From positions 434,001 to 498,000 of the forward strand of contig NZ_CAKAKB010000001.1 in NCBI RefSeq assembly GCF_916618755.1: 64,000 bases of DNA. The letters run 5' to 3'. Source of the stretch: Actinotalea sp. Marseille-Q4924 (GTDB taxonomy: Bacteria; Actinomycetota; Actinomycetes; Actinomycetales; Cellulomonadaceae). Of this stretch, positions 24,988-40,917 are shown in pieces (within the stretch, counting starts at the first letter, position 1; each line of letters starts with the position of its first letter). The position numbers and the translations under genes are program-made. Under the pieces are notes generated by a model. The model was not told the origin of the DNA. It saw nothing but the letters and a program-made list of their open reading frames with translations, and searched no databases.

Positions 24988-25131
24988 GGACGTCGCTGCG
25001 CGCCCGGTCGGGTGATCGCGCGGGTGAACTCGTGGGGCCGAACGGGTGAGTGCGTACTGCTCATGACCGGTGGCCCCAGCGCCGATGAACAGGGGGCGGC
25101 CGCAGATCGCGGCCGGCAGGACGGGGGAGCG

Positions 25132-26004
25132 GTGCGCACGTCGTGGGGGTCCGCGACCGACCGTGGTCGGGTCCGCGCGCTCAACGAGGACTCCCTGCTG
25201 GCGTACCCCCCGGTCTTCCTGGTCGCGGACGGCATGGGCGGCCACGAGGCGGGGGACATCGCCAGCCGCCTCGCCGTCGAGGAGTTCTCCCAGCTGCTCG
25301 GCCACGGCACGGCCACCGTCGAGGACGTCCACGCGTGCTTCCACCGCACCGCGGAACGCCTGGCGGAGACCGTCGGCGGCGGTCGCGTGGCGGGGACGAC
25401 GGTCGCCGGCGTCGTGGTCGCGGAGCTCGACGGAGGGGCGTACTGGCTCGTCTTCAACATCGGCGACTCGCGGGTCTACCGCCTCGCCGCCGGCGAGCTC
25501 GAGCAGATCAGCGTCGACCACTCCGTCGTGCAGGACCTCGTCGACGCCGGTGACCTCAGCCCCGCGGAGGCGGCCGTCCACCCTGAGCGCCACGTCATCA
25601 CGCGCGCCGTCGGCGGCGGGCTCCCGCCCGAGCCGGACTACTGGCTCATCCCCGCCGGCCCGACCGACCGGCTCCTCATCTGCTCGGACGGCCTGACGAG
25701 CGAGCTCACGGACGCCGTGCTGCGGTCCATCCTGCTGGAGCGCGAGGACCCCCAGCAGGCGGCCCACGAGCTGGTCCGCGCAGCCCTCTCGGCCGGCGGC
25801 AAGGACAACGTCAGCGCCGTCGTCGTCGACGTCGCGCGCGCGCAGCGCACGGCCGACGTCGAGAGCACGGCGGACGCGGGCCACGTGCGCACGGCCGCGC
25901 CGGACGCCGACGGCGCAACGACCTGGGACGACGCCGTCGACGGCGACACCGTCCCCCGCCCGACGGGACCCGCGGGGACCCGCACACCGGAGGTGCTCGC
26001 ATGA
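25132..26004 (+). CDS. PP2C-type protein serine/threonine phosphatase
   Basis: Metal-dependent phosphatase expected to reverse the kinase encoded two genes on. The 290-residue product has the PP2C motifs LNEDSLL, VADGMGGHEAGDIAS, SDGLTSEL and GGKDNVSAVVVDV, with all metal-binding aspartates present. The catalytic domain fills residues 1-235; a 50-residue disordered tail follows. I start at GTG 25132 after GGGGGAG because the domain begins at once (RTSWGSATDRG); an ATG at 25063 or GTG at 25012 would add 23-40 residues. First gene of the surface-signalling cluster; ATGA overlap with the FHA gene. Confidence 0.9.
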   Translation: MRTSWGSATDRGRVRALNEDSLLAYPPVFLVADGMGGHEAGDIASRLAVEEFSQLLGHGTATVEDVHACFHRTAERLAETVGGGRVAGTTVAGVVVAELDGGAYWLVFNIGDSRVYRLAAGELEQISVDHSVVQDLVDAGDLSPAEAAVHPERHVITRAVGGGLPPEPDYWLIPAGPTDRLLICSDGLTSELTDAVLRSILLEREDPQQAAHELVRAALSAGGKDNVSAVVVDVARAQRTADVESTADAGHVRTAAPDADGATTWDDAVDGDTVPRPTGPAGTRTPEVLA

Positions 26005-27410
26005 TCGTCCCCCGTTACGCGCCCGGTGGGTGGTTCGCCGTGGTCACCGACGGCCACGTCTGCCTCCTGCCCCCCGACGTCGACCGCGACACCGTCACCA
26101 CGCTGTGGGCGGCGGTGCGGGACGGCGCCGGTCTCACGGCCCAGTTGCAGCTCCTGCTCGCGGGCGGGCTGGACGCCCTGCCGCCCTTCGCCCTCGTCTC
26201 GCTCGAGCGGGACCGGGTCCACGTGGTCGTCCGGGGGGACGTCGAGGTGCAGGTCGACGCCGACGAGCCGCGCACCGTGCGCGGCCGCCGGGTCGCGACC
26301 TGGCAGGAGGAGGTCGTGGACGGCGCCTTCAGCGTGGTGGCGCGGGTCCTCGACGGTGCCGCGGGCGCCGACGCGACCCTGCCGGTCCTGTCCGCCGTGG
26401 TGCACGCCGGCGCGGTCGCCGTTGACCTGCGCGCCCGCGTCGGCCGGGGCGCCACCGCACCGGTCGCACCACCGGTCGCAGCACCGGTCGCAGCACCGGT
26501 CGCAGGGGACGCGGCCGGTGCCGGGTCGCGGGCCGCTGCGGCGGAGCCCGTACGCGTCGGGTCACGGTCGGCTGCGACAGGTCCGACGGGCGTGCGTGCG
26601 GACGCCGCGGAGCCGGTCGGCGTGCGGCCTGGGTCGGACGTCTCTCGTCCCGAGGTGCCCGAGACGGACCCGCGCGACATGGCCGAGCTGGACGACCTGG
26701 AGCACACCGTGCTGCACGCGAGCACGGACACGTCCGTGGGCCTGCGGCTCGACCTCGAGGCCGCTCCCGAGCCTGCGGTGGTCCCGGCGCCCGCCGCGGT
26801 GCCCGCCCCGGCGCCCGCCCCGGCGCCCGCGCCCGTGCCCGCCCCGGCGCCCGCTCCTGCGCCGGAGCCGACGCCTCACGACGCGAGCTCTGTCCCGACC
26901 GACGCGACCGTGGCGGCGGTGCCCGGACCCGCCGGGGCGCCCGACGACGCCGACCACGACGGGACCACCGTCCTCAGCTCCGACGTCGTCGCCCTGCGTC
27001 GGCAGCTGCCGGAGTGGGCGGGCGACGGTGTCCCCGGCCCGCTGGCCGTCCCGGCGCCCAACCGGCCCGCTCCGGCGAAGATCCGCCTGTCGTCCGGGCT
27101 CGTCGTCTCCCTCAACCGTCCGGTGCTCCTCGGCCGCGCCCCGCAGGTGTCGCGCGTGTCGAACCGCGAGATGCCCCGTCTCATCACCGTCGCGAGCCCG
27201 CGGCAGGACATCTCCCGCACCCACGCCGAGGTGCGGATGGACGGCGACGACGTCCTCGTCACCGACCTGCGGTCCACCAACGGCGTGCTCCTGCTGCGCC
27301 AGGGCCACGGCCCCCAGCGCCTGCACCCCGGCGAGCCGACCGTGGTGGAGCCCGGCGTGTCGGTGGACCTCGGCGAGGGCGTGACGTTCGCCGTGGAGCG
27401 CGGTGCATGA
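26001..27410 (+). CDS. FHA-domain protein with Pro/Ala-rich linker
   Basis: A 469-residue cytoplasmic protein. Residues 1-145 form an unrecognised globular N-terminal region (SLERDRVHVVVRGDVEVQV). A long low-complexity linker (about 150-340) includes 12-bp repeats and a PAPAPAP stretch. The C-terminal FHA domain (about 365-465) has LLGRAP, ISRTHAEV and STNGVLLL, the phosphothreonine-binding signature. Flanked and overlapped by a phosphatase and a kinase, it is a likely substrate or adaptor of that kinase. No membrane segment. Confidence 0.85.
   Translation: MIVPRYAPGGWFAVVTDGHVCLLPPDVDRDTVTTLWAAVRDGAGLTAQLQLLLAGGLDALPPFALVSLERDRVHVVVRGDVEVQVDADEPRTVRGRRVATWQEEVVDGAFSVVARVLDGAAGADATLPVLSAVVHAGAVAVDLRARVGRGATAPVAPPVAAPVAAPVAGDAAGAGSRAAAAEPVRVGSRSAATGPTGVRADAAEPVGVRPGSDVSRPEVPETDPRDMAELDDLEHTVLHASTDTSVGLRLDLEAAPEPAVVPAPAAVPAPAPAPAPAPVPAPAPAPAPEPTPHDASSVPTDATVAAVPGPAGAPDDADHDGTTVLSSDVVALRRQLPEWAGDGVPGPLAVPAPNRPAPAKIRLSSGLVVSLNRPVLLGRAPQVSRVSNREMPRLITVASPRQDISRTHAEVRMDGDDVLVTDLRSTNGVLLLRQGHGPQRLHPGEPTVVEPGVSVDLGEGVTFAVERGA
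26457..26504 (+). repeat. Four 12-bp tandem repeats in the FHA gene linker
   Basis: GCACCGGTCGCA occurs at 26457, 26481 and 26493, with a one-base variant at 26469, encoding APVA-type units. In frame. A second repetitive stretch of proline-alanine codons follows at about 26785-26870. Confidence 0.8.
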
Positions 27411-29047
27411 CCGCACGCCGTGAGCCCTCCACGCCCCCGACGCTGCCGGGTTACGACCCGGTGCGGCTCCTCGGCATGGGCGGGTTCGCGGACGTCTTCC
27501 TCTACGAGCAGCGCATGCCGCGCCGGTCCGTCGCCGTCAAGGTGCTCCTGGCCGGTCACCTCGGCGACGACGTGCGCGCGCGCTTCCGCACCGAGGCCGA
27601 CACCATGGCGCGCCTGTCGCACCACCCGTCGATCGTCACGATTCACCACGCGGACGTCGCCGCGGACGGCCGCCCGTTCCTCGTCATGGAGTACTGCGCG
27701 AGGCCGGGCCTCGGGCAGCGGTACCGCTCCGAGCGCATCGGCGTGGCGGAGGTGCTTCGGATCGGGGTGCGGCTGGCGTCGGCGGTCGAGACGGCGCACC
27801 GCGCGGGCGTGCTGCACCGGGACATCAAGCCGGCGAACGTCCTCATCACCGACTTCGGGTGGCCGGCGCTGACGGACTTCGGCATCGCCGCGACGACGAG
27901 CTGGGCGGCCGGCTCCGCCGTCGGCATGTCGATCCCGTGGTCCCCGCCGGAGATGCTCGCCGAGCACCCGGCCGGCGACGCGCGCGCCGACGTGTACTCC
28001 CTCGCCGCGACGGTCTACTCCCTCCTGGCGCGGCGGTCCCCGTTCGAGGTGCCCGGGGCCCCGAACGGCGCGGCCGACCTCATCCCGCGCATCGAGCGCG
28101 GTGCCCTCGTCGCCACCGGCCGCGGGGACGTCCCGGAGACCCTCGAGGCGGTGCTGCGCCGCGCGATGGACGTGGACCCGCGCCGCCGCCACCACAGCGC
28201 CTTCGCCTTCGCCCGAGCGCTCCAGCAGGTCGAGGCGGAGCTGCTGCTGCCGCTGACCCCCCTGGACCTCCCGGAGGAGCCCGACGGGGTCGCCGACGAC
28301 GACGAGCAGGACGCCCCGGCCGACGGCGAGGCGGGCCAGGCCACCCGGCTGCGTCCCGTGCCGTCGATCGCCCCGGAGGCGGCGTCGGTGCCGTCCGCCG
28401 GCACCGCAGCCCGGTTCGGTGCGGACCGCTCCCCCCACGCCGGCGGCCTCGCGGGGGCCTCGGCGGCCGCCGGTGAGGACTCCGGGGAGGTCCTCGCGCA
28501 CTGGCGGGCCGCGGCGTCGTCGTCCGCCGGGGCGCCGGCGTACGGGGCGGGCGCTGACCCGACCGAGGCACCCGCCGCGCGCGGTCGGCGCCGGGTGCTC
28601 GCGGGAGCGCTCGCGGGTGCCGCCGTGGTGGCCGTCCTCGCGGTCGCGGCCGTCCAGGCGTTCACCCCCGCCGACGACGACGCCGCGACGGCGGGACCGA
28701 CGCCGGCCGTCCGCCCCCCGGCCGTCCCGGTCATCCGCGCGGTGCCGGCGCCCGCCGACCTGACGGGTGTGCCCGCGGGCGACGGGACGGTGGTGTTCAC
28801 CTGGACGAACCCCGAGCCGGAGGAGGGTGACCGGTACGTGTGGGGGGTCGTGGTGCCCGGTCGTGACACCGCGCTGGCGCCCGTGGACGAGCCCTCCGTG
28901 ACCGTGCCCGCGTCACCCGACGGACCCGACGGCACCTGCGTCGAGGTCGCGCTCGTGCGCCAGGACGGCCGGTCGTCCACGCAGCCCGCGGTCGCGTGCG
29001 CGGCCGGTGGCGAGGCGTCGGGCGCCGACGCCGAGGTCAGCGGATGA
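27407..29047 (+). CDS. Transmembrane Ser/Thr protein kinase with FN3-like ectodomain
   Basis: A 546-residue Hanks-type kinase. The glycine loop LGMGGFADVF (22-31), Lys45 in VAVK, catalytic Asp139 in LHRDIKPAN and Asp157 in LTDFGIA are intact, and SPPEML serves as the APE segment. A disordered juxtamembrane region (about 285-395) leads to one transmembrane helix (about 398-420, LAGALAGAAVVAVLAVAAVQAF). The outer 120 residues resemble an FN3 fold (TVVFTWTNPEPEEGDRYVW...VEVALVR). No PASTA repeats are present, so it is not a PknB-type cell-wall sensor. ATGA overlap with the FHA gene and with the giant surface-protein gene downstream. Confidence 0.9.
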   Translation: MTARREPSTPPTLPGYDPVRLLGMGGFADVFLYEQRMPRRSVAVKVLLAGHLGDDVRARFRTEADTMARLSHHPSIVTIHHADVAADGRPFLVMEYCARPGLGQRYRSERIGVAEVLRIGVRLASAVETAHRAGVLHRDIKPANVLITDFGWPALTDFGIAATTSWAAGSAVGMSIPWSPPEMLAEHPAGDARADVYSLAATVYSLLARRSPFEVPGAPNGAADLIPRIERGALVATGRGDVPETLEAVLRRAMDVDPRRRHHSAFAFARALQQVEAELLLPLTPLDLPEEPDGVADDDEQDAPADGEAGQATRLRPVPSIAPEAASVPSAGTAARFGADRSPHAGGLAGASAAAGEDSGEVLAHWRAAASSSAGAPAYGAGADPTEAPAARGRRRVLAGALAGAAVVAVLAVAAVQAFTPADDDAATAGPTPAVRPPAVPVIRAVPAPADLTGVPAGDGTVVFTWTNPEPEEGDRYVWGVVVPGRDTALAPVDEPSVTVPASPDGPDGTCVEVALVRQDGRSSTQPAVACAAGGEASGADAEVSG

Positions 29048-32000
29048 GGGGCGCGCGCACGCCCGGCGTGGGCTCGGAGCCGCGCCGTCGGCGGGGCCGC
29101 GCCGCACCGGCCACGCCCGAGGCACGCCGCCGTCGGTGGAGCACGACGGTCGGCGCCTCCGTGCTGCCGGCCGTCGTCGCGGTCCTCGCGATCGTCCACC
29201 CCGGCGCGCCGGTCTCCCAGGTGGACCTGCACGACGGCTCGGTGTGGCTGACCAACGCCGCACAGCTCAAGGTCGGCCGCTACAACCCGCAGGTGGAGGA
29301 GCTCAACGCGGGCCTCGTCTCCACCAGCCCCGACACCGACGTCCTGCAGGACGGTGGCGACGTGGTGCTCACCGAGCCGGGTGCGCTGGCGGTCGTGGAC
29401 CCGGCGAGCGTCACCGCCGTCACCCGCACCGCCGTGCCGTTCGGGGCGCGGGTCGGCATGGCCGCGGGCACGGTGGCCGTCGAGGCGGCCGGCTCGCTGT
29501 GGGTCCGCACGACGTCGACGGTCGGTGGCCTGGCCGTCGACCGCGACGAGCCGGACCTCGACCTCGGGGAGGGCGGCCGTGCCGTCGTCGCGGACGACGG
29601 CACGGTGCTCGCGGCGGAGGTCGACGGCACGCTGCACCGGATCGGCCCGGGCGGTCCGGACGAGGAGGCGCGCGTCGAGGACGCCGGGACCCTCGCCGGT
29701 GACCCCGCGGTCCCGGCGGACGACGTCACCGCGGTCGGGCAGGATCTCGTCGCCCTCGTCGGCACGCGGCTGCACACGCCGTCGGCGGTCGTGGACCTCG
29801 GCGGCCACGGTGCGGACCTCGTCCTGCAGCAGCCCGGACCTCGGGCGTCGACCGTGCTCGTGGCGACCCCCACGGCCCTGCTCGAGGTGCCGCTGGAGGG
29901 CGGTCAGGTCCGTGAGCACCGCACCGCGGGCTCGGGCGCCGCCGCCGCCCCCGTGCGGGTCGCGGGGTGCGCGCACGGCGCCTGGGCCTCCGCGACCGGC
30001 AGCTACCTGCAGCTGTGCGAGGGCGCCGCGCCCGAGATTGTCGACCTGGAGGGCATGACGGCCGCCGACGAGCTGGTCTTCCGCGTCAACCGCGACGTCG
30101 TCGTCCTCAACGACGTGCTGCGTGGCCGGCTGTGGCTGCCCCTGCAGGACCCGCAGGTGCGCGAGCCCAACTGGCAGGACATCGAGCCGGAGGAGGAGCG
30201 CGAGGAGGACGACCAGGAGTCGGAGAGCAGGGAGAGCACCCAGAACCTGCAGACCGAGTGCGGCGAGGACTCGGCGGCGCCGGCCGCCGCCGACGACGAG
30301 TACGGCGTGCGCCCGGGCCGCACGACCCTCCTCACGGTCATCGACAACGACGCCGCGTCGGACTGCGGCATCCTCACCGTGCGCGAGTTCGACGCGCTGG
30401 ACCCCGACTTCGGCGTGCTCGAGCCGGTCCACGGGGGCCGCGCCCTGCAGCTGCGGGTCGCCGGCGGTGCGAGCGGCACGGCGGAGTTCACGTACACGGT
30501 GGACGACGGGCGGGGGACCAGCGCGCCGTCCACGGCGACGGTCCGCCTGACCGTCCGCGCCGTCGGCGAGAACGGCGCACCGGTCCAGGTCCGGGAGGGT
30601 GCCGCCGTCGTCGAGCAGAGCGGGTCGATCACGTACGACGTCCTCGCCGACTTCCAGGACCCGGACGGCGACCCGATGCTGCTCACCGCGGCCGTCGTCG
30701 ACGGCGGGGGGACCGTCCGGACGCGCCAGGACGGGGAGCTGACGTTCACCTCGGACGGCAGCGCGCTCGGCCGGGTCCAGGTCCGGGTGGCCGTGTCCGA
30801 CGGGCGGGAGGCCACCGACGGCGTCGTCTGGGTCGACGTCCGGCCGCAGGGCTCGGTCGTGCCCGTGATCGACCCCGTCCAGGCCGTGACGTACGTCGAC
30901 GAGCCCGTGGTCGTGCGCCCGCTCGACAGCGTCCGCAGCTCGTCCCGCGAGCCGGTGCGGCTCGCCGGTGTCGACGACGTGCCGGGCGCGACGCTCACGA
31001 CCGACCTCGACGAGGGGACCTTCACGTTCTCCGCGCCCGGACCGGGGACGTACTACGTCCGGTTCGTCGTCGCCGTCTCGCCGCAGGAGGCGGAGGGCGT
31101 GGCACGGATCGACGTGCGCGAGCGGCCCGACGAGGTCCCGCCCCCCGTCGCCGTGCTGGACCGCGCGCTGCTGCCGCCCGGCGGGGAGGTCACCATCGAC
31201 CCGCTCGCGAACGACGTCGACCCCGCCGGCGGCGTGCTGGCCGTCCAGTCGGTCCAGGTCCCCGAGGGCAGCGGCCTGCGCATCGCGGTGCTCGGCCACC
31301 GGCTGCTGCGGATCACGTCCCTGCGGACGCTCACGGAACCGGTCGTCGCCTCGTACGTGGTGTCGAACGGCGTGGCGGAGGCCACGGGCGAGGTCGTCGT
31401 GCAGCCAGTCCCGGCGTCCACCGGCCAGCAGGCGCCGGTCGTGCCCCACGTGGAGGCGACCGTCCGCACGGGCGGCGTCGTCACCGTCGCCGTCCTCGAG
31501 GACGCCTACGACCCGGACGGCGACCCCCTGGCCCTCCAGCCCGAGCTCGTGGAGCCGCTCGGTCCCGGCGAGGGGCTGCTCTTCGTCTCCGGCGACGTGC
31601 TGCGGTACCAGGCGCCCGCCGCCGCGGGCACGTACCGGGCGACGTTCGCCGTCCGTGACCCGGCGCGGAACGAGACCGCGGCGACCGTCACGGTGCGCGT
31701 GCACGAGTCCGACCCCGAGGCGAAGGCGCCGCCCCGCCCGCAGGACCTCACCGCCCGGGTGTTCGCCGAGCAGACCGTGCGCATCCCCGTGCCGCTCACC
31801 GGCATCGACCCCGACGGCGACGGCGTCCTGCTCCTCGGCGAGGCGCGCGCCCCCCGCAAGGGGCGCATCGTCGAGCGCGGCGCGAGCTGGCTGGAGTACG
31901 AGGCGCTGCCCGGGGAGGTCGGCACGGACACCTTCACCTACGCCGTCGAGGACTGGGTCGGCCAGCGTGCGACCGCCACCATCCGCGTCGGCATCGTGCC

Positions 32001-34998
32001 GCGTCCCACCGGATCGACCGACGTGGTGAGCCGCAACGACGACGTACGGGTGCGGCCGGGGCAGACGGTCGAGGTGCGCGTGCTCGCCAACGACGTGGAC
32101 ACCTCCGGCGGCGAGCTCGACCTGGACGACGCGCTCGTCGTGCAGCCGGAGGGCGTGCAGGCACGGGTCGTGGACCGCCGCGTCGTCGTGACCGCACCCG
32201 ACCAGCCCGGGCCGGTCGCGATCACCTACACCGCGCGGAACACGCGCGGCGGCAGCGACAGCGCCGTCCTCAGCGTCGTGGTGGACCGCGAGGCGCCGAT
32301 CCTGCCGCCCGTGGCGCGCGACGTCGTCGTCCCCGCCACGCAGACGATCGACCGCACCTCCGTCGAGGTCGACGTCCTGGCCCTCGCCCAGAACCCCAGC
32401 GGCCCGCTCGCGGACCTCGCCGTGGAGGTGCACCCCTCCGCCGCGGACCGGGCGACGGTGACCCAGCGCGGCCGGGTGCTGGTCACCCTGGGTCCGACGC
32501 CGCAGACCCTGCCGTACGTGCTGCGCAACACCAACCCCCAGGCGGACGGCGTGAGCGCCACCGCGTTCATCACGGTCCCGGCGCTCGGCGACTTCCCGCC
32601 CGTCCCGCGGCCGCGGGCGCCCCGGCTCCAGGTGGTGGCGGGCGAGCAGCTCCGCATCCCGATCGAGGAGCAGGTCCAGGTCGCCCCCGGCCGCACCGCG
32701 CGGATCGCGGACGTGGCGTCGGTCTCGGCCACCAAGCACGACGGCTCGCCCCTGGTCGCCGACGACCGGACGCTGCTGTTCACCGCCCCGCGGTCCTACG
32801 CGGGTCCCGCGTCGATCACGTTCGAGGTGACCGACGGGTCGGCCGGGTCGGTCTCCTCGCGCACACGCGTCATGACGCTGCCGATCGACGTGCTCGCCGC
32901 GGAGGACCACCCGCCGACGTTCGCGCCGTCGGTCCTCGACGTGGGCCCGGGGGAGACCACGCAGGTCGACCTCGCGCGCTTCACCTCCGCGCCCGTCGGC
33001 ACCGCCGCCGACCCGGACGCCGGGGAGGACCCGCAGAGCAGGTACTCCTACAGCCTCACCCGCCCCGCCGGGGACGGCTTCACGGTGACGCTCGAGGGCT
33101 CCGTCCTGACGGTGCGGGCCGCGCCGACGGCGTCCCGGGGCACGGTCGGCGGCGTCGGCGTCGCGATCGGCTACGGCGGCGCGGCGCCGGTGGCCGGCCA
33201 GGTCGACTTCCGCGTCGTCGCCAGCTCCCGGCCGCTGGCGCGGGTCCTGGACCACGCGGTGCCGGACGGCGTGGAGGGCGGCGCGTCGGTCGTCGACGCT
33301 CTCGCCGGGGCCTCCAACCCCTTCGCGCCCGAGCGGCTCACCGTCGTCGGCGCGGTGGTGGAGCAGGGTTCCGGGACGGCGGTCGTGGCCGGCGACCGGG
33401 TGACCGTGCGCCCGGCCGACGGCTTCATCGGGCAGGTGGTCGTGCGCTACCGGGTCCGGGACGTCACCGGCGACCCCGACCGCGAGGTCGAGGGCCGGAT
33501 CACGGTCACCGTCCGCGGGCGCCCGGCGACCCCGGTGGCACCCCGCGTGGTCGAGGTCCGGGACCGCACGGTGGTCCTGGCCTGGGACGCGCCCGGCAAC
33601 AACGGCGAGCCCATCACCGGGTACGAGCTGACGGGGCAGCCCGGCGGCGTGGCCCGGCAGTGCGCCGGCACGACGTGCACCGTGGACGGGCTGACCAACG
33701 ACGTCGAGTACGTCTTCACCGTCACGGCGCGCAATACCGTCGGGGTGTCCGACGCGAGCCCGCCCTCCCAGCCGGCCCGCCCGGACGCCCGACCCTCCGC
33801 CCCGGGGGCGCCGACGCTCGAGTGGGGCGACGGCACCGTGACGGCACGGTGGTCCGCCCCGCAGAACACGGGCTCGCCGATCCAGCGGTACGACGTCGAG
33901 ATCAGCCCGAGCCCCGGCGGCAGCGCCTCGGCGACGACGAGCGCTACGACGCACACGTTCACGGGGCTCACCAACGGCACCGCCTACACGGTCCGCGTCC
34001 GCGCGGTGAACCGGGCCCCCGAGCCGGGCGACTGGAGCGCGGCCTCCGCGTCCGCGGTCCCCGCCGGCCCGCCCGCCGCGCCGGCGCCGAGCGCGCAGCG
34101 GTTCGACCAGAGCATCTTCGGCGGCGGCCGGCTCGAGGTGACGTGGCCGGCCCCTGCGCCGAACGGCGACCCCGTCGCCCGCTACGAGATCCGCGTCGAC
34201 GGTGCGGCAGCGGTCACGCCGTCCGGGGGCGACCGGCACGTCGTCGACCCGGCCGGGCCGGGCACGTACCGGTTCGAGGTCCGTGCCTTCAACAAGGCCG
34301 GTGCCGGGCCGTGGTCCGCGCCGCTCGTCGTCGAGCACGCCACCGTGCCGAGCGCACCGGGCAACCTGTCCGCCACCTTCGAGCCCTCGACCGGTGCGGT
34401 GCGCCTCGGCTTCGACGAGCCCGACTGGGCGGGGGGCCGGAACCGCGAGATCCAGGTGTCCGTGGACGGTGGGGCGTTCACCGGCCTGGCCGGGGACCGC
34501 CGTGTCGGCGGGCTGCCGGCCGGCGACCACTCCTTCGTCGTCCGCGGCTGCAACACCGAGGGCTGCGGGTCCCCGAGCGGACCGGCGTCGGCGACCGTCA
34601 CGACGCCGCCCGGGGCGGTGCCCGGCGACTCGCTCAGGATCGCCGTCGAGACGCCGGCCGACCCCCGGCGGTTCCGGGCCACGTGGTCGCCGCCCGGCTC
34701 CACCGGTGGCCTGCCCGTGCGGTACGAGTACCGCTGGGGCTGGTCGGTCGACGGGCTCCTCGGCGACCGCGACGAGTCCGGCTGGATCGGCACCGGCGAG
34801 CCGACCGCGACCCAGGACATCCCCAACCCGGTCCGCAACCGGGGCGGTGAGATCTGGGTCGTGGTGCGCGCCGTCAACGACCGCGGTCCCGGCCCGGAGA
34901 GCGGCGAGGTCCGGGTCAGGGTCGAGCCGCCCGCCCCGGCGCCCGGCCCGACCCCACCCCGACGCCCACCCCGACCCCGTAGGAGCACCGACCCGTGA
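29044..34998 (+). CDS. Giant membrane-anchored Ig-like/FN3 surface protein
   Basis: A 1984-residue protein. An Arg-rich cytoplasmic lead (1-34) and one transmembrane helix (about 35-54) put the rest outside. Residues 55-370 look like a beta-propeller (repeated short strands such as VVLTEPGALAVVD), then an acidic linker (about 381-400). Residues 415-1490 hold a chain of cadherin/Ig-like modules with DPDGDP-type calcium motifs. From about 1498 there are five FN3 repeats (for example NNGEPITGYEL, GLTNGTAYTVRVRAVN). It ends in a Pro/Arg tail with no sortase signal. Joined by ATGA to the kinase and by GTGA to moxR. Function unknown; adhesion or envelope sensing are inferences. Confidence 0.85.
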   Translation: MRGARTPGVGSEPRRRRGRAAPATPEARRRRWSTTVGASVLPAVVAVLAIVHPGAPVSQVDLHDGSVWLTNAAQLKVGRYNPQVEELNAGLVSTSPDTDVLQDGGDVVLTEPGALAVVDPASVTAVTRTAVPFGARVGMAAGTVAVEAAGSLWVRTTSTVGGLAVDRDEPDLDLGEGGRAVVADDGTVLAAEVDGTLHRIGPGGPDEEARVEDAGTLAGDPAVPADDVTAVGQDLVALVGTRLHTPSAVVDLGGHGADLVLQQPGPRASTVLVATPTALLEVPLEGGQVREHRTAGSGAAAAPVRVAGCAHGAWASATGSYLQLCEGAAPEIVDLEGMTAADELVFRVNRDVVVLNDVLRGRLWLPLQDPQVREPNWQDIEPEEEREEDDQESESRESTQNLQTECGEDSAAPAAADDEYGVRPGRTTLLTVIDNDAASDCGILTVREFDALDPDFGVLEPVHGGRALQLRVAGGASGTAEFTYTVDDGRGTSAPSTATVRLTVRAVGENGAPVQVREGAAVVEQSGSITYDVLADFQDPDGDPMLLTAAVVDGGGTVRTRQDGELTFTSDGSALGRVQVRVAVSDGREATDGVVWVDVRPQGSVVPVIDPVQAVTYVDEPVVVRPLDSVRSSSREPVRLAGVDDVPGATLTTDLDEGTFTFSAPGPGTYYVRFVVAVSPQEAEGVARIDVRERPDEVPPPVAVLDRALLPPGGEVTIDPLANDVDPAGGVLAVQSVQVPEGSGLRIAVLGHRLLRITSLRTLTEPVVASYVVSNGVAEATGEVVVQPVPASTGQQAPVVPHVEATVRTGGVVTVAVLEDAYDPDGDPLALQPELVEPLGPGEGLLFVSGDVLRYQAPAAAGTYRATFAVRDPARNETAATVTVRVHESDPEAKAPPRPQDLTARVFAEQTVRIPVPLTGIDPDGDGVLLLGEARAPRKGRIVERGASWLEYEALPGEVGTDTFTYAVEDWVGQRATATIRVGIVPRPTGSTDVVSRNDDVRVRPGQTVEVRVLANDVDTSGGELDLDDALVVQPEGVQARVVDRRVVVTAPDQPGPVAITYTARNTRGGSDSAVLSVVVDREAPILPPVARDVVVPATQTIDRTSVEVDVLALAQNPSGPLADLAVEVHPSAADRATVTQRGRVLVTLGPTPQTLPYVLRNTNPQADGVSATAFITVPALGDFPPVPRPRAPRLQVVAGEQLRIPIEEQVQVAPGRTARIADVASVSATKHDGSPLVADDRTLLFTAPRSYAGPASITFEVTDGSAGSVSSRTRVMTLPIDVLAAEDHPPTFAPSVLDVGPGETTQVDLARFTSAPVGTAADPDAGEDPQSRYSYSLTRPAGDGFTVTLEGSVLTVRAAPTASRGTVGGVGVAIGYGGAAPVAGQVDFRVVASSRPLARVLDHAVPDGVEGGASVVDALAGASNPFAPERLTVVGAVVEQGSGTAVVAGDRVTVRPADGFIGQVVVRYRVRDVTGDPDREVEGRITVTVRGRPATPVAPRVVEVRDRTVVLAWDAPGNNGEPITGYELTGQPGGVARQCAGTTCTVDGLTNDVEYVFTVTARNTVGVSDASPPSQPARPDARPSAPGAPTLEWGDGTVTARWSAPQNTGSPIQRYDVEISPSPGGSASATTSATTHTFTGLTNGTAYTVRVRAVNRAPEPGDWSAASASAVPAGPPAAPAPSAQRFDQSIFGGGRLEVTWPAPAPNGDPVARYEIRVDGAAAVTPSGGDRHVVDPAGPGTYRFEVRAFNKAGAGPWSAPLVVEHATVPSAPGNLSATFEPSTGAVRLGFDEPDWAGGRNREIQVSVDGGAFTGLAGDRRVGGLPAGDHSFVVRGCNTEGCGSPSGPASATVTTPPGAVPGDSLRIAVETPADPRRFRATWSPPGSTGGLPVRYEYRWGWSVDGLLGDRDESGWIGTGEPTATQDIPNPVRNRGGEIWVVVRAVNDRGPGPESGEVRVRVEPPAPAPGPTPPRRPPRPRRSTDP

Positions 34999-35960
34999 CC
35001 ATGACACCCGAGCAGAGCGCCTGGTTCGCCGAGACGTTCGACGCGCTCGTGGCGAACGTCGGCCAGGCCGTGCTGGGCAAGGACCACGTCGTCAGGCTCG
35101 CGCTCACCTGCATGCTCGCCGAGGGGCACCTGCTCCTCGAGGACGCGCCCGGCACGGGCAAGACGTCCCTGGCCAAGGCGATCGCCGCGACGGTGCAGGG
35201 CACCCACAGCCGGATCCAGTTCACCCCGGACCTGCTGCCCTCGGACGTGACGGGCGTGACGATCTACGACCAGAACACGCACCGCTTCGAGTTCCACGAG
35301 GGCCCCGTGTTCGCCTCCGTGGTCCTCGCGGACGAGATCAACCGTGCGTCGCCGAAGACGCAGTCCGCCCTCCTGGAGGTGATGGAGGAGTCCAAGGTCA
35401 CCGTGGACAAGGTCTCGCACCCGGTCGGCCGCCCGTTCATGGTCATCGCGACGCAGAACCCGATCGAGCAGGCGGGCACCTACCGGCTGCCCGAGGCCCA
35501 GCTGGACCGCTTCCTCATGAAGACGTCGCTCGGGTACCCCGACCACGCGTCGACGCTCGAGATCCTCGCCGGCTCGGCGGAGCGCGACCGCACGGCGCAC
35601 CTGGCCCCGAAGATCACCACGGCCGCCGTCGGCGACATGGCCGCGCTCGCGTCGACGGTGCACACCGACGCCGCGGTGCTGGACTACGTCGCGCGCCTCA
35701 CGGAGGCGACGCGGACCGACGCGCAGACCGCCCTGGGCGCCAGCGTGCGCGGGGCCCTCGCGCTCGTCCGCTGCGGCAAGGTGTGGGCCGCCTCCCAGGG
35801 CCGGACGTACGTCCTCCCCGACGACGTCAAGCTCCTCGTGCCGCCGGTGCTCGAGCACCGCGTCATCCTCGACACCGAGGCGGAGTTCGCCGGCGTGACC
35901 GCGCGCCAGGTCCTCTCCCGCATCCTCGCCGAGACCCCGCCGCCGGCGGCGCGCGTCTGA
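34995..35960 (+). CDS. MoxR-family AAA+ ATPase
   Basis: A 321-residue AAA+ protein of the MoxR/RavA group, which act as chaperones for assembly of membrane or surface complexes. Walker A is EDAPGTGKTSLAKA (about 48-61), Walker B VVLADEINRASPKTQ, and the sensor segment MVIATQNPIEQAGTY. GTG 34995 is chosen as the start because AGGAG lies 9 bases upstream; ATG 35001 would be 15 bases away. Followed by DUF58 and a TgpA-like gene, the classic moxR gene set. Confidence 0.92.
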   Translation: MTMTPEQSAWFAETFDALVANVGQAVLGKDHVVRLALTCMLAEGHLLLEDAPGTGKTSLAKAIAATVQGTHSRIQFTPDLLPSDVTGVTIYDQNTHRFEFHEGPVFASVVLADEINRASPKTQSALLEVMEESKVTVDKVSHPVGRPFMVIATQNPIEQAGTYRLPEAQLDRFLMKTSLGYPDHASTLEILAGSAERDRTAHLAPKITTAAVGDMAALASTVHTDAAVLDYVARLTEATRTDAQTALGASVRGALALVRCGKVWAASQGRTYVLPDDVKLLVPPVLEHRVILDTEAEFAGVTARQVLSRILAETPPPAARV

Positions 35961-35962
35961 CC

Positions 35963-37180
35963 GTGCCGTCGTCGACCCGCCGCCGCGTGCGCGGCACGTC
36001 CCGCCGCGTGGCCCGGCGGCTCGCCGGGCCGTTCGGCGTGGTGTCCGCCCTCGGGTGGGCCGCGCTGGTCGCGGCGCTGGTGCTCGGCGCGCTCGGCTGG
36101 TGGCTGGGCTGGGTGGAGCTCACCGTCCTCGCCGCCACGCTCGCCTCCGCGCTGGTCGTGTCGCTGCTGCTGACCCTGGGCCGGTCCACCTACGCGGTCG
36201 CCCTCGAGCTGTCGGACCACCGGGTGACCGTGGGCCGGCGTGCCGTCGGCCGGCTGGAGGTGCGGAACACCTCGCGCGGGCGACTCCTGCCCGCCCGCCT
36301 CGAGCTGCCCGTGGGCAGGGCGGTCGCCGAGCTCGCCCTGCCCTCCCTGGGTGCGGGCGCCGCGCACGAGGAGGTCTTCGCCATCCCGACGACGCGCCGC
36401 GCCGTCGTCGTCGTGGGCCCCGTGCGGTCGGTGCGCGGCGACCCCCTGGGCCTGCTCCGCCGGCGGGTCGAGTGGACCGACCCCGTCGACCTCTACGTCC
36501 ACCCGGAGCTGGTGTCCCTCGGCGGGGCGTCGTCGGGGCTGCTGCGGGACCTCGAGGGGCAGGCCACGCGGGTGGTGTCCGACTCGGACATGTCCTTCCA
36601 CGCCTTGCGGGACTACGTCGCCGGGGACGACCGGCGGCACATCCACTGGCGCACGACGGCCCGCACGGGCCAGCTCGTCGTGCGCCAGTTCGAGGACACC
36701 CGCCGCACGCACACCGCGATCGCCCTCGCGACGGCGACCGACGACTACGCCGACGCGGACGAGTTCGAGCTGGCCGTGGCGGCGGTGGCGTCGCTCGGGG
36801 TCCAGGCGCTGCGCGACGAGCGCGAGCTGACCGTCCTGGCCGGCGCCGGCTCCCTGCGCACCGACTCCCCGCCGGTCCTCCTCGACGACTGCGCCGGGCT
36901 GGAGTCGGCCGCGGACGGCACCGCGACCGACCGCCTCGCGTCCCGCGTCGCCCGCGAGGCGGGTGACGCCACCGTGGCCGTCCTCGTGACGGGATCCGTC
37001 CCGTCCGCCGCGCAGCTGCGCGCCCACGCCCGACGCGTCCCGGTCGGCGTGCGCACCCTCGTCCTGCGGTGCGAGCAGGGCGCGGACGTCGACGTCGCCA
37101 CCAACGGCACGCTCTCGGTGGCGCGCCTCGGCGCGCTGCCCGACCTGCCGCGGGTCCTGCGCCGGGTGGTGGGCTCATGA
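35963..37180 (+). CDS. DUF58-domain membrane protein
   Basis: A 405-residue protein with two N-terminal transmembrane helices (about 22-70, WAALVAALVLGALGWWLGW and VLAATLASALVVSLLL), then a conserved extracellular or cytoplasmic beta-rich part and the DUF58 core with SFHALRDYVAGDDRRHIHW (about 212-230). DUF58 proteins have a von Willebrand A-like fold and are standard partners of MoxR. GTG start 2 bases after the moxR stop; ATGA junction with the next gene. Confidence 0.88.
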   Translation: MPSSTRRRVRGTSRRVARRLAGPFGVVSALGWAALVAALVLGALGWWLGWVELTVLAATLASALVVSLLLTLGRSTYAVALELSDHRVTVGRRAVGRLEVRNTSRGRLLPARLELPVGRAVAELALPSLGAGAAHEEVFAIPTTRRAVVVVGPVRSVRGDPLGLLRRRVEWTDPVDLYVHPELVSLGGASSGLLRDLEGQATRVVSDSDMSFHALRDYVAGDDRRHIHWRTTARTGQLVVRQFEDTRRTHTAIALATATDDYADADEFELAVAAVASLGVQALRDERELTVLAGAGSLRTDSPPVLLDDCAGLESAADGTATDRLASRVAREAGDATVAVLVTGSVPSAAQLRAHARRVPVGVRTLVLRCEQGADVDVATNGTLSVARLGALPDLPRVLRRVVGS

Positions 37181-39564
37181 CCGCCCCGGCTGTCGTGCTG
37201 GAGGCCCAGGGGCGCGCGCCGCGGGCCCGGCCCGCCGTCGACGCCGGCGTGCTCGCCGTGGCGCAGGTGCTCGTCCTGCTCCCGCTCGTGCCGGTCTACG
37301 GGTGGCGCGCCGCGCTGCCCGCCGTGCTCGGCGGCGTGGCGGCCGGGACGGCCCTCGCCGTCGTCGCGGCCGCGCGGCGCTGGAGCGGCCCGGTGACGGC
37401 GGCGCTCGCCGTCGTCGGGTACCTCCTGGTCGGGCCCGCCCTCGCCGCACCGACGACGACGCTGTGGGGCGTCCTGCCCACGCCGGCCGGCGCGCTGCTG
37501 CTCCTGCGCGGGGCCATCACCGTGTGGCGCGAGGTCCTCACCCTCGACCCGTCGCTGGGTGGCAGCGGCAACCTCCTCGCGGCGCCCTTCCTCCTCGCGT
37601 ACGGCGGGACCGTCGTCGGGGTGACGCTCGCGCGCCGCCTCGACGCCCGGGCAGGCGCCGGTGCCGCCGCCGTCCCGCTGGTCACGCTGCTCGTCGCGCT
37701 GCTGCTCGGGACGAAGGAGGCGGTGCAGCCCGTCCTCGCGGGGACGGCCCTCGCCCTCGTCCTGCTCTCCTGGGTCGCGTGGCGCCGAGGGTCCCTCGCG
37801 CCGCGTCGCGTCGTCTCGGCAGCGGTGCTCGTCGCCGTGGCGGTCGCCGGCGGGGCGGTCGTCGGCCCGGTCGTCGGCCAGGACCGCCCGCGGTTCGTGC
37901 TGCGGGACGAGATCGTGCCGCCGTTCGACCCGCGCGACCAGGCGAGCCCGCTGTCCTCGTTCCGTCGCTTCGTCAAGGACTGGCGCGAGACGGAGCTCGT
38001 CACGGTCCGGGGCCTGCCGGAGGGCGCCGCGGTCCGCATCGCGACGATGGACGCCTTCGACGGCGTCGTGTGGGACGTCGCCGGTTCCGAGGCCGCCGAG
38101 GGGTCGGGCCGGTTCCGCCGCGTCGGCGAGACCATCCAGGCCACGGAGCGCGGGGAGCAGGCCACCGTCGAGGTCGAGGTGCACACCCTGCCGGGGGTGT
38201 GGCTGCCCACCGTCGGCTACGCCGAGCGGATCGACTTCACCGGGCCCGAGCCGCTCGAGCGGGCCGCGGACCTGCGGTACAACGACGCCACCGGCACCGC
38301 CGTCCTCACCGACGGCGTCCCGGACGGCACCCGCTTCACCGCGCAGGTCGTCGTGCCGCCCGCGCTCGCGCCCGACGAGCTCGGCGGCGCCGCCGTCGGG
38401 GCGGTGCGACTGCCGGAGCCGCGGGCCGTCCCGGAGGCGGTGCCGCTCCTGGCCGGTGAGATCGCCGGCACGGCCTCGACGCCCGCGCTCGTGGCCGAGG
38501 CGCTCGCCGCCGGCCTGCGCGAGCGCGGCTGGTTCAGCCACGGCCTCGTGGAGTCCGGCGACCACCCGTCGCTGTCCGGCCACGGCGCCGACCGGCTCAC
38601 GACGCTCCTCACCGGCGACCTCATGGTGGGCGACGGTGAGCAGTACGCGTCCGCGATGGCGCTCATGGCCCGCGAGATGGGCCTGCCCTCCCGGGTCGTC
38701 CTCGGCCTCGTGCCCGGGGAGGACCAGGCGGGCGCCGAGGAGGTCACGCTCACGGGCGACGACGTCGAGGCGTGGGTCGAGATCGCCTTCGCGGGACACG
38801 GCTGGGTCGCGTTCGACGCCACTCCGGACGAGAGCAAGACGCCGCGGGAGGACACGCCCGACCAGGAGGCGCAGCCGCAGCCGCAGGTCCGGCAGCCGCC
38901 CCCGCCGCCGCCGGACCCGGTGACGCCGCCCGACGACGACACGGAGCAGCCGCGCACGGACGCACCGCCTGAGCCCCGGACCGGCGTCGACGACCTGCGC
39001 CCGTACCTCGTGGCCGCCGCGGTGGTCGCCGTCCCGCTCCTGGTGCTCCTCGGACCGCTGCTGCTCGTCGGCGCGCTCAAGGTGCGACGACGTCGGAGGC
39101 GCCGCACCACCGGGGGACCGGTCGAGCGGGTGGTCGGCGGCTGGGACGAGCTGCTGGACCACGCCCACGACCTGCGCCGACCCGCACCGCGGCGTGCGAC
39201 GCGGCGGGAGACCGCCGTGCACCTCGCCGAGTCGTTCGCGGCGGCCGTGCCCGAGCAGCGCACGCCGGTCGGTGCGACGCGCGGACCGGCGGGGCCGTCG
39301 CGGCGTCGTCCGGGGGTCGCCGGACCGGTCGCCGGACTGGCGGCACGTGCCGACGCCGTGGTGTTCGGGCCGGGCGAGCCGACGCGGGAGCAGGTCGAGG
39401 CGTACTGGCAGCAGGTGGATGCCGCACTGCGCTCGCTGCAGGCCGCGGTCCCCGCACGCGATCGCGTCCGTGCCCGCTGGTCCACCGCCTCGTTGCGGGC
39501 CCGGCGCCGGGAGCGCACGGCGGCTCGTCGCGCGCGCCCTGTGGACGGAGCGCCCGGAGGCTGA
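37177..39564 (+). CDS. TgpA-like membrane protein with catalytically dead transglutaminase domain
   Basis: 795 residues: about six N-terminal helices (25-230), an extracellular transglutaminase-like domain (about 250-560), a Pro-rich linker, one more helix (about 608-632) and a cytoplasmic tail. At the site where active members have a Cys (GxCE-F/Y-A), this protein reads VGDGEQYASAMALMA, with Gly487. The usual catalytic His (D-x-HAWVE) is Glu531 in DDVEAWVEI. Only the third position, Asp547 in FDATP, remains. The rest of the fold is well kept and the frame is clean, so this looks like a pseudoenzyme, not a decaying gene. It follows moxR and DUF58 in the usual order. Confidence 0.85.
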   Translation: MTAPAVVLEAQGRAPRARPAVDAGVLAVAQVLVLLPLVPVYGWRAALPAVLGGVAAGTALAVVAAARRWSGPVTAALAVVGYLLVGPALAAPTTTLWGVLPTPAGALLLLRGAITVWREVLTLDPSLGGSGNLLAAPFLLAYGGTVVGVTLARRLDARAGAGAAAVPLVTLLVALLLGTKEAVQPVLAGTALALVLLSWVAWRRGSLAPRRVVSAAVLVAVAVAGGAVVGPVVGQDRPRFVLRDEIVPPFDPRDQASPLSSFRRFVKDWRETELVTVRGLPEGAAVRIATMDAFDGVVWDVAGSEAAEGSGRFRRVGETIQATERGEQATVEVEVHTLPGVWLPTVGYAERIDFTGPEPLERAADLRYNDATGTAVLTDGVPDGTRFTAQVVVPPALAPDELGGAAVGAVRLPEPRAVPEAVPLLAGEIAGTASTPALVAEALAAGLRERGWFSHGLVESGDHPSLSGHGADRLTTLLTGDLMVGDGEQYASAMALMAREMGLPSRVVLGLVPGEDQAGAEEVTLTGDDVEAWVEIAFAGHGWVAFDATPDESKTPREDTPDQEAQPQPQVRQPPPPPPDPVTPPDDDTEQPRTDAPPEPRTGVDDLRPYLVAAAVVAVPLLVLLGPLLLVGALKVRRRRRRRTTGGPVERVVGGWDELLDHAHDLRRPAPRRATRRETAVHLAESFAAAVPEQRTPVGATRGPAGPSRRRPGVAGPVAGLAARADAVVFGPGEPTREQVEAYWQQVDAALRSLQAAVPARDRVRARWSTASLRARRRERTAARRARPVDGAPGG

Positions 39565-39693
39565 TCGAGGTGGGAGCCTCACGAGGGCGGCAGGACCTGC
39601 CGATAGGCACACGACAGCAGCCGCACCGAGCAGGCCCGAGCCCGCGAGGACGACGGCGCCGCGGGACGCGTGACCCAGGGGGAGAAGGACCGG

Positions 39694-40917
39694 ATGTCGA
39701 TGGCCGTAGGAGCGCCCGCGAGCATGGGGCGACGTCTGCTCGCCGCCCTCGTCGACGGTGCGCTGGCCCTCGTCCTCGTCGTGCTGCCGGTGGCGCTCGC
39801 CGTCCTGCCGGGGCGGGGCGAGCCGGACGCGTCGCTCGCCGCCGGCCCGCTCGCCGCCGGCTCGGTGCTGCTCCTGGGGCTGACGGTGACCCAGTGGGTG
39901 CTCCTGGGCCGTCGCGGCTGGACGGTCGGCAAGCGGCTCCTGGGCGTGCTGGTCCTCAGCGAGCGGTCGGGCTTCCCTCCCGGTCTCGGCCCGGCGTTCC
40001 TCCGCCTCCTCGTGCCCGCCGCCGCGAACCTGCTGCCGCTGCTCGGACCGGTCCTCGTGCACCTCTCGCCGTTCTTCGACCCGTCGGGGCGGCGTCAGGG
40101 CTGGCACGACAAGGTGGCGGGGACGGTGGTCGTCGACGCGCGACGCGCCCCGGCGCCGGGCGCCGGCCAGGTGGAGCGCCGCCTGCAGCACCTGCTGACC
40201 CCGGTCGGGACGCCGGTTCCGGCGTCCGCCACCGACCGGCCGTGGTCACCGACGACGGCGCCCGCCTCGCCGCCGGCGCCGCTGCCCGACGAGCTCGAGG
40301 ACACGGGGGTCGTCCAGCAGGTCCCGGGCGTGAGCGCCCGGCCCACCGCACCGTGGGCGCCGTCGTCGGCCGAGCCGGCAGCGGTGCCGGCACGGCCCTC
40401 CGCCCTCCACGCGCCGGCGCTCAGCCGCGGCCTGGTCGCGGGGACCCGCGTCGTCCCGGCACCGGAGGTGGTGACCTCCGTCCCGTTCCCGCACCAGCCG
40501 TCGCGCGAGGAGGAGGACGTGGAGTCGACGCGCCTGCGTCCGGCCCGGGCGAAGGTCCCCGAGCTCGCCGCGTCGGACCACGAGGCCACGGTCGAGCTCA
40601 CGGACGGCCAGCGGGTCACCTTCAGCGGTGTGGCGCTCGTCGGCCGCAACCCGACGCCGCGGGCGGGGGAGGACGGCTGCCGTCTCATCCGGGTGGCGGA
40701 CCCGGGACGCTCGGTGTCGAAGACCCACCTGCTCCTGGGCGTGGACCGCAACGGCCTGTGGGTCAAGGACCGGCACTCGACCAACGGCACCGTGGTGACG
40801 CTCGCGGACGGCCAGCAGATCCTCTGCGGCGCCGACCAGCAGGTCCGCCTGCCCGCCGGTGCCTCGGTGGCCTTCGGCGACTACGGCTTGTCGGTCGCCA
40901 CCGTCGACGCCGTCTGA
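39694..40917 (+). CDS. RDD-family membrane protein with C-terminal FHA domain
   Basis: A 407-residue protein. The RDD membrane domain (about 8-150) begins MGRRLLAALVDGALAL and includes the GWTVGKRLLGVLV and GWHDKVAGTVVV segments. A disordered linker (about 165-285) precedes an FHA domain (about 305-400) with LVGRNP, SVSKTHLLL and STNGTVV. The ATG at 39694 has GGAGAAGGA upstream; a GTG at 39670 would add eight residues. It closes the cluster with a second phosphothreonine reader, this one membrane bound. Its 3' end overlaps the convergent transporter gene by 37 bases. Confidence 0.87.
   Translation: MSMAVGAPASMGRRLLAALVDGALALVLVVLPVALAVLPGRGEPDASLAAGPLAAGSVLLLGLTVTQWVLLGRRGWTVGKRLLGVLVLSERSGFPPGLGPAFLRLLVPAAANLLPLLGPVLVHLSPFFDPSGRRQGWHDKVAGTVVVDARRAPAPGAGQVERRLQHLLTPVGTPVPASATDRPWSPTTAPASPPAPLPDELEDTGVVQQVPGVSARPTAPWAPSSAEPAAVPARPSALHAPALSRGLVAGTRVVPAPEVVTSVPFPHQPSREEEDVESTRLRPARAKVPELAASDHEATVELTDGQRVTFSGVALVGRNPTPRAGEDGCRLIRVADPGRSVSKTHLLLGVDRNGLWVKDRHSTNGTVVTLADGQQILCGADQQVRLPAGASVAFGDYGLSVATVDAV

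Follow-up and report, generated by a model that had tools for sequence, protein, structure and literature searches.

What is the role of a gene block that places a Ser/Thr phosphorylation circuit next to a MoxR-type ATPase and a very large surface protein, and is it particular to the genome in which it was found? The block in question lies on the forward strand at positions 25132-40917 of a 64,000-nucleotide stretch of Actinotalea sp. Marseille-Q4924 (NZ_CAKAKB010000001.1, 434,001-498,000; host genome 3.64 Mb), henceforth referred to as the window. Eight co-directional open reading frames encode, in order, a PP2C phosphatase, an FHA protein, a kinase, a giant Ig/FN3 protein (henceforth the giant), MoxR, a DUF58 protein, a TgpA-like protein and an RDD-FHA protein (Table 1). 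An earlier reading made from the letters alone (the sequence-only reading) had named these eight kinds, which was confirmed by the open reading frames and by Pfam and NCBIfam matches. It also knew of no described function for the exact combination, and this was not upheld: the set is that of the PFNA operon of Bifidobacterium, for which functional claims, if doubtful ones, have been published. Comparison of the encoded proteins indicates that the window block is an orthologue of that operon, and that the Bifidobacteriaceae copies are one branch of an older family.

Relationship to the PFNA operon of Bifidobacterium

The PFNA operon comprises pkb2, fn3, aaa-atp (MoxR), duf58 and tgm, to which some species add prpC and fha (PMC8430577). 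It has been described as unique to bifidobacteria and as a host-immune (TNF-alpha) sensor (PMC8430577, PMC6803598, PMC10688814), and its genes are reported to be co-transcribed in B. longum GT15 (PMC8430577). The window carries the same genes in the same core order, with an orthologous giant, MoxR and TgpA-like protein. The B. longum giant has 1994 residues, with FN3 domains at 1494-1581 and 1586-1671 (PMC6803598, PMC10688814); the window giant has 1984 residues, and its best fn3 stretch spans residues 1499-1576. The window differs in that PP2C and one FHA gene stand upstream of the kinase, the other FHA domain shares a protein with an RDD membrane domain, and the host is not Bifidobacterium.

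Genome families are given f-labels, f1 being that of the window. Family f50 was taken as Bifidobacteriaceae from the phosphoketolase of one member, G517, which by eye, in the printed alignment, is nearly identical to PDB 8io6/3ai7, chains that we take to come from B. longum; the presence of a phosphoketolase alone is not decisive, as it was also found in 4/4 f52 genomes. The order kinase-giant-MoxR-DUF58-TgpA-like was present in all eight f50 regions (chosen for a giant hit), although in L140 a single open frame covers both giant and MoxR. In the four f50 loci tested, the giant was 32-37% identical to the window giant over about 1600 residues; that of G405 aligned in register (64-1635 to 59-1626) with 37% identity over 1599 residues. 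MoxR from the four loci was 51-57% identical to the window operon copy vs 43-47% to its three window paralogues (for G405, 57% vs at most 46%). In a tree of 65 tips, built from joined MoxR, DUF58 and TgpA-like columns and rooted on L262, the f50 tips formed one clade with a support of 1.0 inside the tree, grouped with f49 and f9 members (0.937). Some other deep nodes were weak (0.19-0.59), and the three remaining tips from other classes were not placed together.

As a separate observation, the giant and MoxR of L140 (G517) make up one frame of 2194 residues and its kinase lacks an FN3-like ectodomain; this is possibly a decaying or fused copy.

Distribution in actinobacteria

How far does the family extend? 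Of 394 genomes sampled from the class, 42 had a match at E ≤ 1e-5 when the first 519 residues of the window giant served as query. In the order, 255 of the 396 genomes, and 65 of the 109 genera, were matched at E ≤ 1e-10 by a profile of 42 giant N-termini (A1); judging from the table, 16 of these 255 genomes, with a best E weaker than 1e-40, may hold Ig-domain matches only. The same profile was matched in 42 of the 394 class genomes at E ≤ 1e-20 and in 12 of 296 phylum genomes; of these 12, six belong to other classes, and in four of the six the matches are long. The three samples have genomes in common. The giant family is common in the order of the window and rarer in the rest of the class.

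A further set, henceforth referred to as the named loci, consists of the best 80 of at least 466 loci found by a TgpA-like site pattern, and all counts of named loci refer to these 80. Actinotalea, Cellulomonas, Microbacterium, Agromyces, Georgenia, Cryobacterium and others are represented. The nearest named relative of the window TgpA-like protein was that of Actinotalea ferrariae (89% identity), very near records possibly being omitted. Several strain names refer to soil, root or leaf and a few to a host (C. hominis, C. timonensis, M. pullorum), these being names only and not habitats. Confinement of PFNA to Bifidobacterium was rejected, as the operon occurs in many other genera and in other classes. 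No prior report of PFNA outside bifidobacteria, or of a dead tgm site, was found in the open-access literature (subscription papers were outside the scope); a mycobacterial moxR operon has been said to resemble PFNA (PMC12067865).

The published explanation is that of a bifidobacterial host-immune sensor, in which the FN3 protein binds TNF-alpha via cytokine-receptor-like motifs and the kinase signals inward. Recombinant FN3 fragments from B. longum are indeed reported to bind cytokines, and TNF-alpha to induce the operon (PMC8430577, PMC6803598, PMC10688814, PMC12607495, PMC12067865). As an account of the system this is nonetheless improbable given its occurrence in many genera other than Bifidobacterium, with the strain names noted above, and in other classes, and given the single, nested clade of Bifidobacteriaceae copies. 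The receptor-like motif WS-x-x-S is likewise common elsewhere, being found in 38/63 giants outside f50 vs 6/7 inside it (L140 not counted); its total of 60 compares with 7.3 expected after residue shuffling, and it looks like a trait of the FN3 domains of the family, not a mark of hosts. Immune sensing in bifidobacteria can be a later use; the host-immune role would then be derived, and cytokine binding is unlikely to have been the original role. Papers from 2019, 2021 and 2023 tied that role, together with therapeutic ideas, to an operon said to occur only in bifidobacteria (PMC6803598, PMC8430577, PMC10688814). Now that many other actinobacteria, some of them in other classes, are seen to carry it, the question becomes one of basic envelope biology, for which free-living species can serve as tractable models.

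A literal WSEWS motif was noted in one giant of the window's own family f1 (L132, G436).

Gene order and modules

Gene order was mapped with profiles on 70 fetched regions and the window (n = 71; some regions overlap). The exact run giant-MoxR-DUF58-TgpA-like was found in 61 of the 71 regions and in 75 of the 80 named loci, the other five of which start at a contig end. The sequence-only reading had described one unit joining a Ser/Thr phosphorylation circuit, the MoxR/DUF58/TgpA-like set and a giant surface protein, and had suggested that neighbourhoods in which the genes are rarely together would speak against it. The genes were together in most neighbourhoods, and their order was the same in many genera, a recurrence that chance does not explain. 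Among the ten regions without the run, three tandem-giant regions were cut at 20 kb and the full run of the same operons is present in L038, L046 and L053, L080 meets a contig end, L065 has MoxR in two frames and L140 has the single frame mentioned above; the remaining four are L055, L146 and L147, which have no MoxR, and the lone giant of L044. Giants in tandem within one operon copy were seen in G239, G367, G289 and G297 (L038/L043, L042/L046, L049 and L053/L058).

The 61 run-bearing regions included a kinase in 45, PP2C in 44 and at least one FHA protein in 48. The 16 without a kinase are not evidence of its absence, because 15 of them end within about 3 kb of the downstream PP2C, where many named loci place the kinase. 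In the named loci the kinase stands directly before the giant in 29/80 and after the TgpA-like gene in 30/80. All eight kinds occur in the swapped order giant-MoxR-DUF58-TgpA-like-RDD/FHA-PP2C-FHA-kinase in 25/80, mostly Microbacterium. That the two modules, PP2C-FHA-kinase and giant-MoxR-DUF58-TgpA-like-RDD/FHA, swap places yet stay together argues for one working unit. Of the four genomes from other classes with long matches, three also have PP2C and a kinase next to the run, the kinase of L263 being encoded on the opposite strand; the fourth, L264, lies at a contig end and shows the run only.

The TgpA-like protein

Is the protein encoded by tgm an enzyme? An active transglutaminase or cysteine protease could cross-link the giant into the wall; the window protein matches both Transglut_core and TgpA_N in Pfam (Table 1), and TgpA of P. 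aeruginosa is reported to keep its catalytic triad and to be active in vitro. This explanation is very unlikely in view of the catalytic site. No operon copy carries the catalytic Cys (45/45 and 20/20, with 4/4 outside the class, 69/69 in total), the residue there being Asp, Glu, Ala, Gly, Ser, an Asn-neighbour variant or similar, and the catalytic His is kept in only 22/65 copies and is Glu in the window. The named loci were excluded from the Cys count since their search pattern itself required D, G or E at the site. The control consisted of the TgpA_N matches of 16 genomes (30 loci): its 13 operon copies had no Cys, L180 was too short to score, and full TgpA proteins without an adjoining giant kept both Cys and His in 13/16 cases (L151-L163, 13 genomes). 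The pseudo-transglutaminase label of the sequence-only reading was borne out by these counts.

A second motif, G-H-x3-R, is nearly invariant in the operon copies (His 63/65, Arg 64/65), and its His was found in the matching segment of none of the 13 Cys-bearing TgpA controls (0/13). By eye, the four copies outside the class all keep G-H, and two of them Arg. Neighbouring G, E and Q residues are invariant in the 44-row operon alignment, which, with the near-invariant motif, is as expected of a binding domain. A domain that has lost its nucleophile while keeping or gaining conserved residues is most simply read as a binding domain, and the tgm annotation would be corrected to that of an apparent, conserved pseudo-enzyme bearing a new candidate site.

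The giant surface protein

The giant frames span 1742-2496 residues from stop to stop, with a median of 2052.5 (70 distinct frames above 300 bits; the weaker L133 was left out), and this range suggests a length constraint. An AlphaFold2 model of the N-terminal 479 residues of the window giant (mean predicted local distance difference test score, pLDDT, 88) shows a helix, about seven propeller blades by strand count and then an Ig domain. The giant N-terminal profile matches the designed propeller Pizza7H (E 6.5e-10) and the propeller of the sensor kinase PknD (1rwi, E 3.2e-6) over part of the domain, and model and profile together indicate that the giant bears a PknD-like propeller. In contrast to PknD, the propeller in the window would sit on the giant and not on the kinase. 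No earlier report of the helix and propeller of the giant, or of the Cys loss and the G-H-x3-R motif of tgm, was found in the open-access literature.

Kinase, MoxR and DUF58

Could the kinase read the giant directly? The sequence-only reading had given both proteins FN3-type modules and had suggested that the kinase senses the giant; in this explanation the FN3 ectodomain of the kinase binds the FN3/Ig giant and reports its assembly, an idea that we regard as rather doubtful. A long, FN3-like ectodomain with a Cys pair is present in 37 of the 51 operon kinases, and its occurrence extends from Bifidobacteriaceae to genomes of other classes; at least two Cys were counted in 37/37 of these and a Trp-core pattern in 32/37, counts that are free of the selection pattern used for the ectodomain profile A3. 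That profile was made from 16 ectodomains picked by a text pattern requiring Trp and one Cys, so that its invariance is partly built in, and it weakly matches FN3 domains of titin (E 4.8e-4) and the IL-13 receptor (E 0.02). Pfam fn3 was found in 1/16 A3 members (E 0.099), and the window kinase ectodomain matched no Pfam family at E ≤ 1. The FN3 assignment of the ectodomain is a weak one. Binding does not follow from FN3 likeness alone, and 12/51 kinases (L073, L078-L084, L133, L142-L144) end 7-14 residues past the membrane helix although a giant adjoins; of the other two, the L140 kinase carries a tail of 48 residues and that of L035 is incomplete. Since these 12 kinases lack an ectodomain, direct sensing through it is not general, which weakens the suggested link between kinase and giant. 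The giant's own propeller, as modelled, is the other candidate sensor. A PASTA/PknB-type kinase was also considered and rejected: NF033483 reached 152 bits vs a cut-off of 450, over residues 20-278 only, and there was no PASTA match in Pfam.

By eye, the motifs of the window kinase, PP2C, FHA and MoxR proteins are intact. DUF58 is taken here to be vWA-like; the Asp of its metal-ion-dependent adhesion site is present in 23/67 copies, a count with no control set that was not used as a marker. The pairing of a MoxR AAA+ ATPase with a vWA-like partner resembles the MoxR-vWA ternary conflict (defence) systems (PMC7159879), with the propeller protein as a conceivable third part, and the bpMoxR Pfam model does match weakly (42 bits, cut-off 27). 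A defence role is nevertheless scarcely credible: AAA_3 is the best model for the window MoxR, with bpMoxR a relative only, no effector-type or VMAP-like family was found by Pfam or NCBIfam among the eight proteins, gene order is kept across many genera, and DUF58 goes unmentioned in the excerpts of the ternary-system paper (PMC7159879).

Proposed function

The explanation that we favour, with confidence about evenly balanced, is that the block is an old actinobacterial phospho-regulated envelope system in which MoxR, DUF58 and the pseudo-transglutaminase handle the giant. The giant, of about 2000 residues, would be anchored by its N-terminal helix, with the propeller at the membrane and the Ig/FN3 rod crossing and leaving the wall. 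MoxR, the kinase, PP2C, the FHA domains and the soluble part of DUF58 would lie on the cytoplasmic side, and the propeller and rod, the pseudo-transglutaminase domain and the kinase ectodomain outside. MoxR as AAA+ ATPase, DUF58 as membrane adaptor and the TgpA-like protein, with its helices and extracellular domain, may form a trans-membrane complex that folds, releases or remodels the giant, both the complex and its direction of action being presumed. The pseudo-transglutaminase would bind its target via a rebuilt pocket (G-H-x3-R, E-Q, W-x-E) without cross-linking it. Kinase and PP2C would set the phosphorylation of MoxR and perhaps of others, the two FHA proteins would read it, and assembly or signalling might be switched by the state of the envelope.

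The chain would run from a signal to the kinase, from MoxR phosphorylation to MoxR work on DUF58 and the TgpA-like protein, and from there to a change in the giant. Its kinase-to-MoxR step is the only one with published support: Pkb2 phosphorylates MoxR in B. longum, as told in later papers (PMC8430577, PMC6803598, PMC10688814). The earlier suggestion that phosphorylation gates MoxR-driven assembly agrees with that work as to phosphorylation, and the gating of assembly would be as set out above. With the giant as a defined candidate client, what DUF58 and MoxR do becomes a question open to experiment.

Several observations weigh against this explanation, in which the connection between the giant and the MoxR-DUF58-TgpA-like trio is itself presumed. 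No MoxR accompanies the giant at L055, L146 and L147, L044 is a lone giant, and the 12 kinases described above end just past the helix beside a giant. Ser replaces Cys in the eight Bifidobacteriaceae copies, so that other chemistry is possible there. Three TgpA-like proteins without a giant (L166, L172, L177) also lack Cys; as L166 falls inside the operon clade (support 0.896) and L172 and L177 adjoin it, the group that has lost Cys is broader than the set of operons with a giant. L166 further stands with MoxR and DUF58 and no giant, which implies that the trio can work without it.

More tentatively, the block might be a phylum-old envelope machine in which a phosphorylation-gated AAA+ complex grips the giant from outside the cell by means of the transglutaminase-derived domain, rebuilt around G-H-x3-R after the loss of Cys. 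Through this grip the machine would load or sense the membrane-anchored rod of propeller and Ig domains, whose almost constant length would suit a ruler or a tension sensor spanning the wall. On this view gut bifidobacteria would bind cytokines as a by-product.

Features and surroundings of the locus

The four-base overlaps reported by the sequence-only reading were found at five of the seven junctions as ATGA or GTGA (26001-26004, 27407-27410, 29044-29047, 34995-34998 and 37177-37180). The MoxR/DUF58 junction has no such overlap if usual starts are required, position 35957 being CTG and the first usual start GTG at 35963, and the RDD-FHA gene starts 105 bases after the TgpA-like gene. Simple scans of 24900-41100 gave no terminator-like site (0.4 expected) and no sigma-70-like promoter. 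The eight genes are probably carried on a single transcript.

Table 1 Features of the eight-gene block in the window, with Pfam matches
Feature	Position	Strand	Pfam match (bits)	Remarks
PP2C Ser/Thr phosphatase	25132..26004	+	PP2C_2 41	prpC-like; GTG start
FHA protein	26001..27410	+	FHA 32	N-domain of unfamiliar fold (about residues 1-130), C-terminal FHA
Hanks-type Ser/Thr kinase	27407..29047	+	Pkinase 114	pkb2-like; HRDIKPAN and DFG; one membrane helix, small extracellular domain
Kinase ectodomain	28718..29044	+		FN3-like (weak matches); Cys pair
Giant surface protein	29044..34998	+	Big_9 200, fn3 118	fn3 of PFNA; 1984 residues; helix, beta-propeller, Big_9/cadherin-like Ig repeats, C-terminal FN3
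Single N-terminal membrane helix of giant	29134..29196	+		model residues 2-22; low pLDDT at helix start
Predicted beta-propeller of giant	29242..30162	+		model residues 38-344; related to PknD/Pizza propeller
MoxR AAA+ ATPase	34995..35960	+	AAA_3/MoxR 209	Walker A APGTGKT, Walker B LADEIN
DUF58 membrane protein	35963..37180	+	DUF58 39	GTG start at 35963
TgpA-like membrane protein	37177..39564	+	Transglut_core 57, TgpA_N 47	tgm of PFNA; pseudo-transglutaminase domain
G-H-x3-R motif	38578..38595	+		GHGADR; just ahead of lost Cys site
Lost catalytic Cys site	38635..38637	+		Gly in window; motif GDGEQYASAM
RDD membrane domain fused to FHA domain	39670..40917	+	RDD 65, FHA 31	

The block is preceded by genes for complex I subunits and for a polyprenyl synthetase. 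It is followed by an EamA transporter gene on the other strand and by genes for a pyridine-nucleotide oxidoreductase-like protein and for an M48 peptidase. The N-domain of the first FHA protein (window 26001-26400) had no clear Pfam family (best E 0.014), and it was found again in many operon copies.

Related sets lacking the giant

Canonical MoxR-DUF58-TgpA sets, such as PA2875-PA2873 of P. aeruginosa, in which the neighbours of TgpA are presumably MoxR and DUF58, and L269 of the window genome, share the trio and the TgpA type of membrane protein. They keep the catalytic Cys and His, whereas the window operon copy has lost both. L269 (C3:395000-412000) lies near mraZ on the opposite strand, and the genes around its trio gave no match to a giant, a kinase or an FHA protein.

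In L266 (G146:C2:183000-202000), the PFNA-clade TgpA-like protein L166 occurs with MoxR and DUF58 next to a PorA-family gene, and no giant match was found there. Two further loci, L267 (G146:C2:688000-707000) and L268 (G078:C2:942000-961000), hold a MoxR-DUF58-TgpA-like trio in which GTSEQFA replaces the Cys motif, and a kinase is encoded on the opposite strand; this trio represents a sister pseudo-transglutaminase system. The trio of L267 adjoins an FHA-FtsK/SpoIIIE ATPase, which by our own reading is type VII secretion-like.

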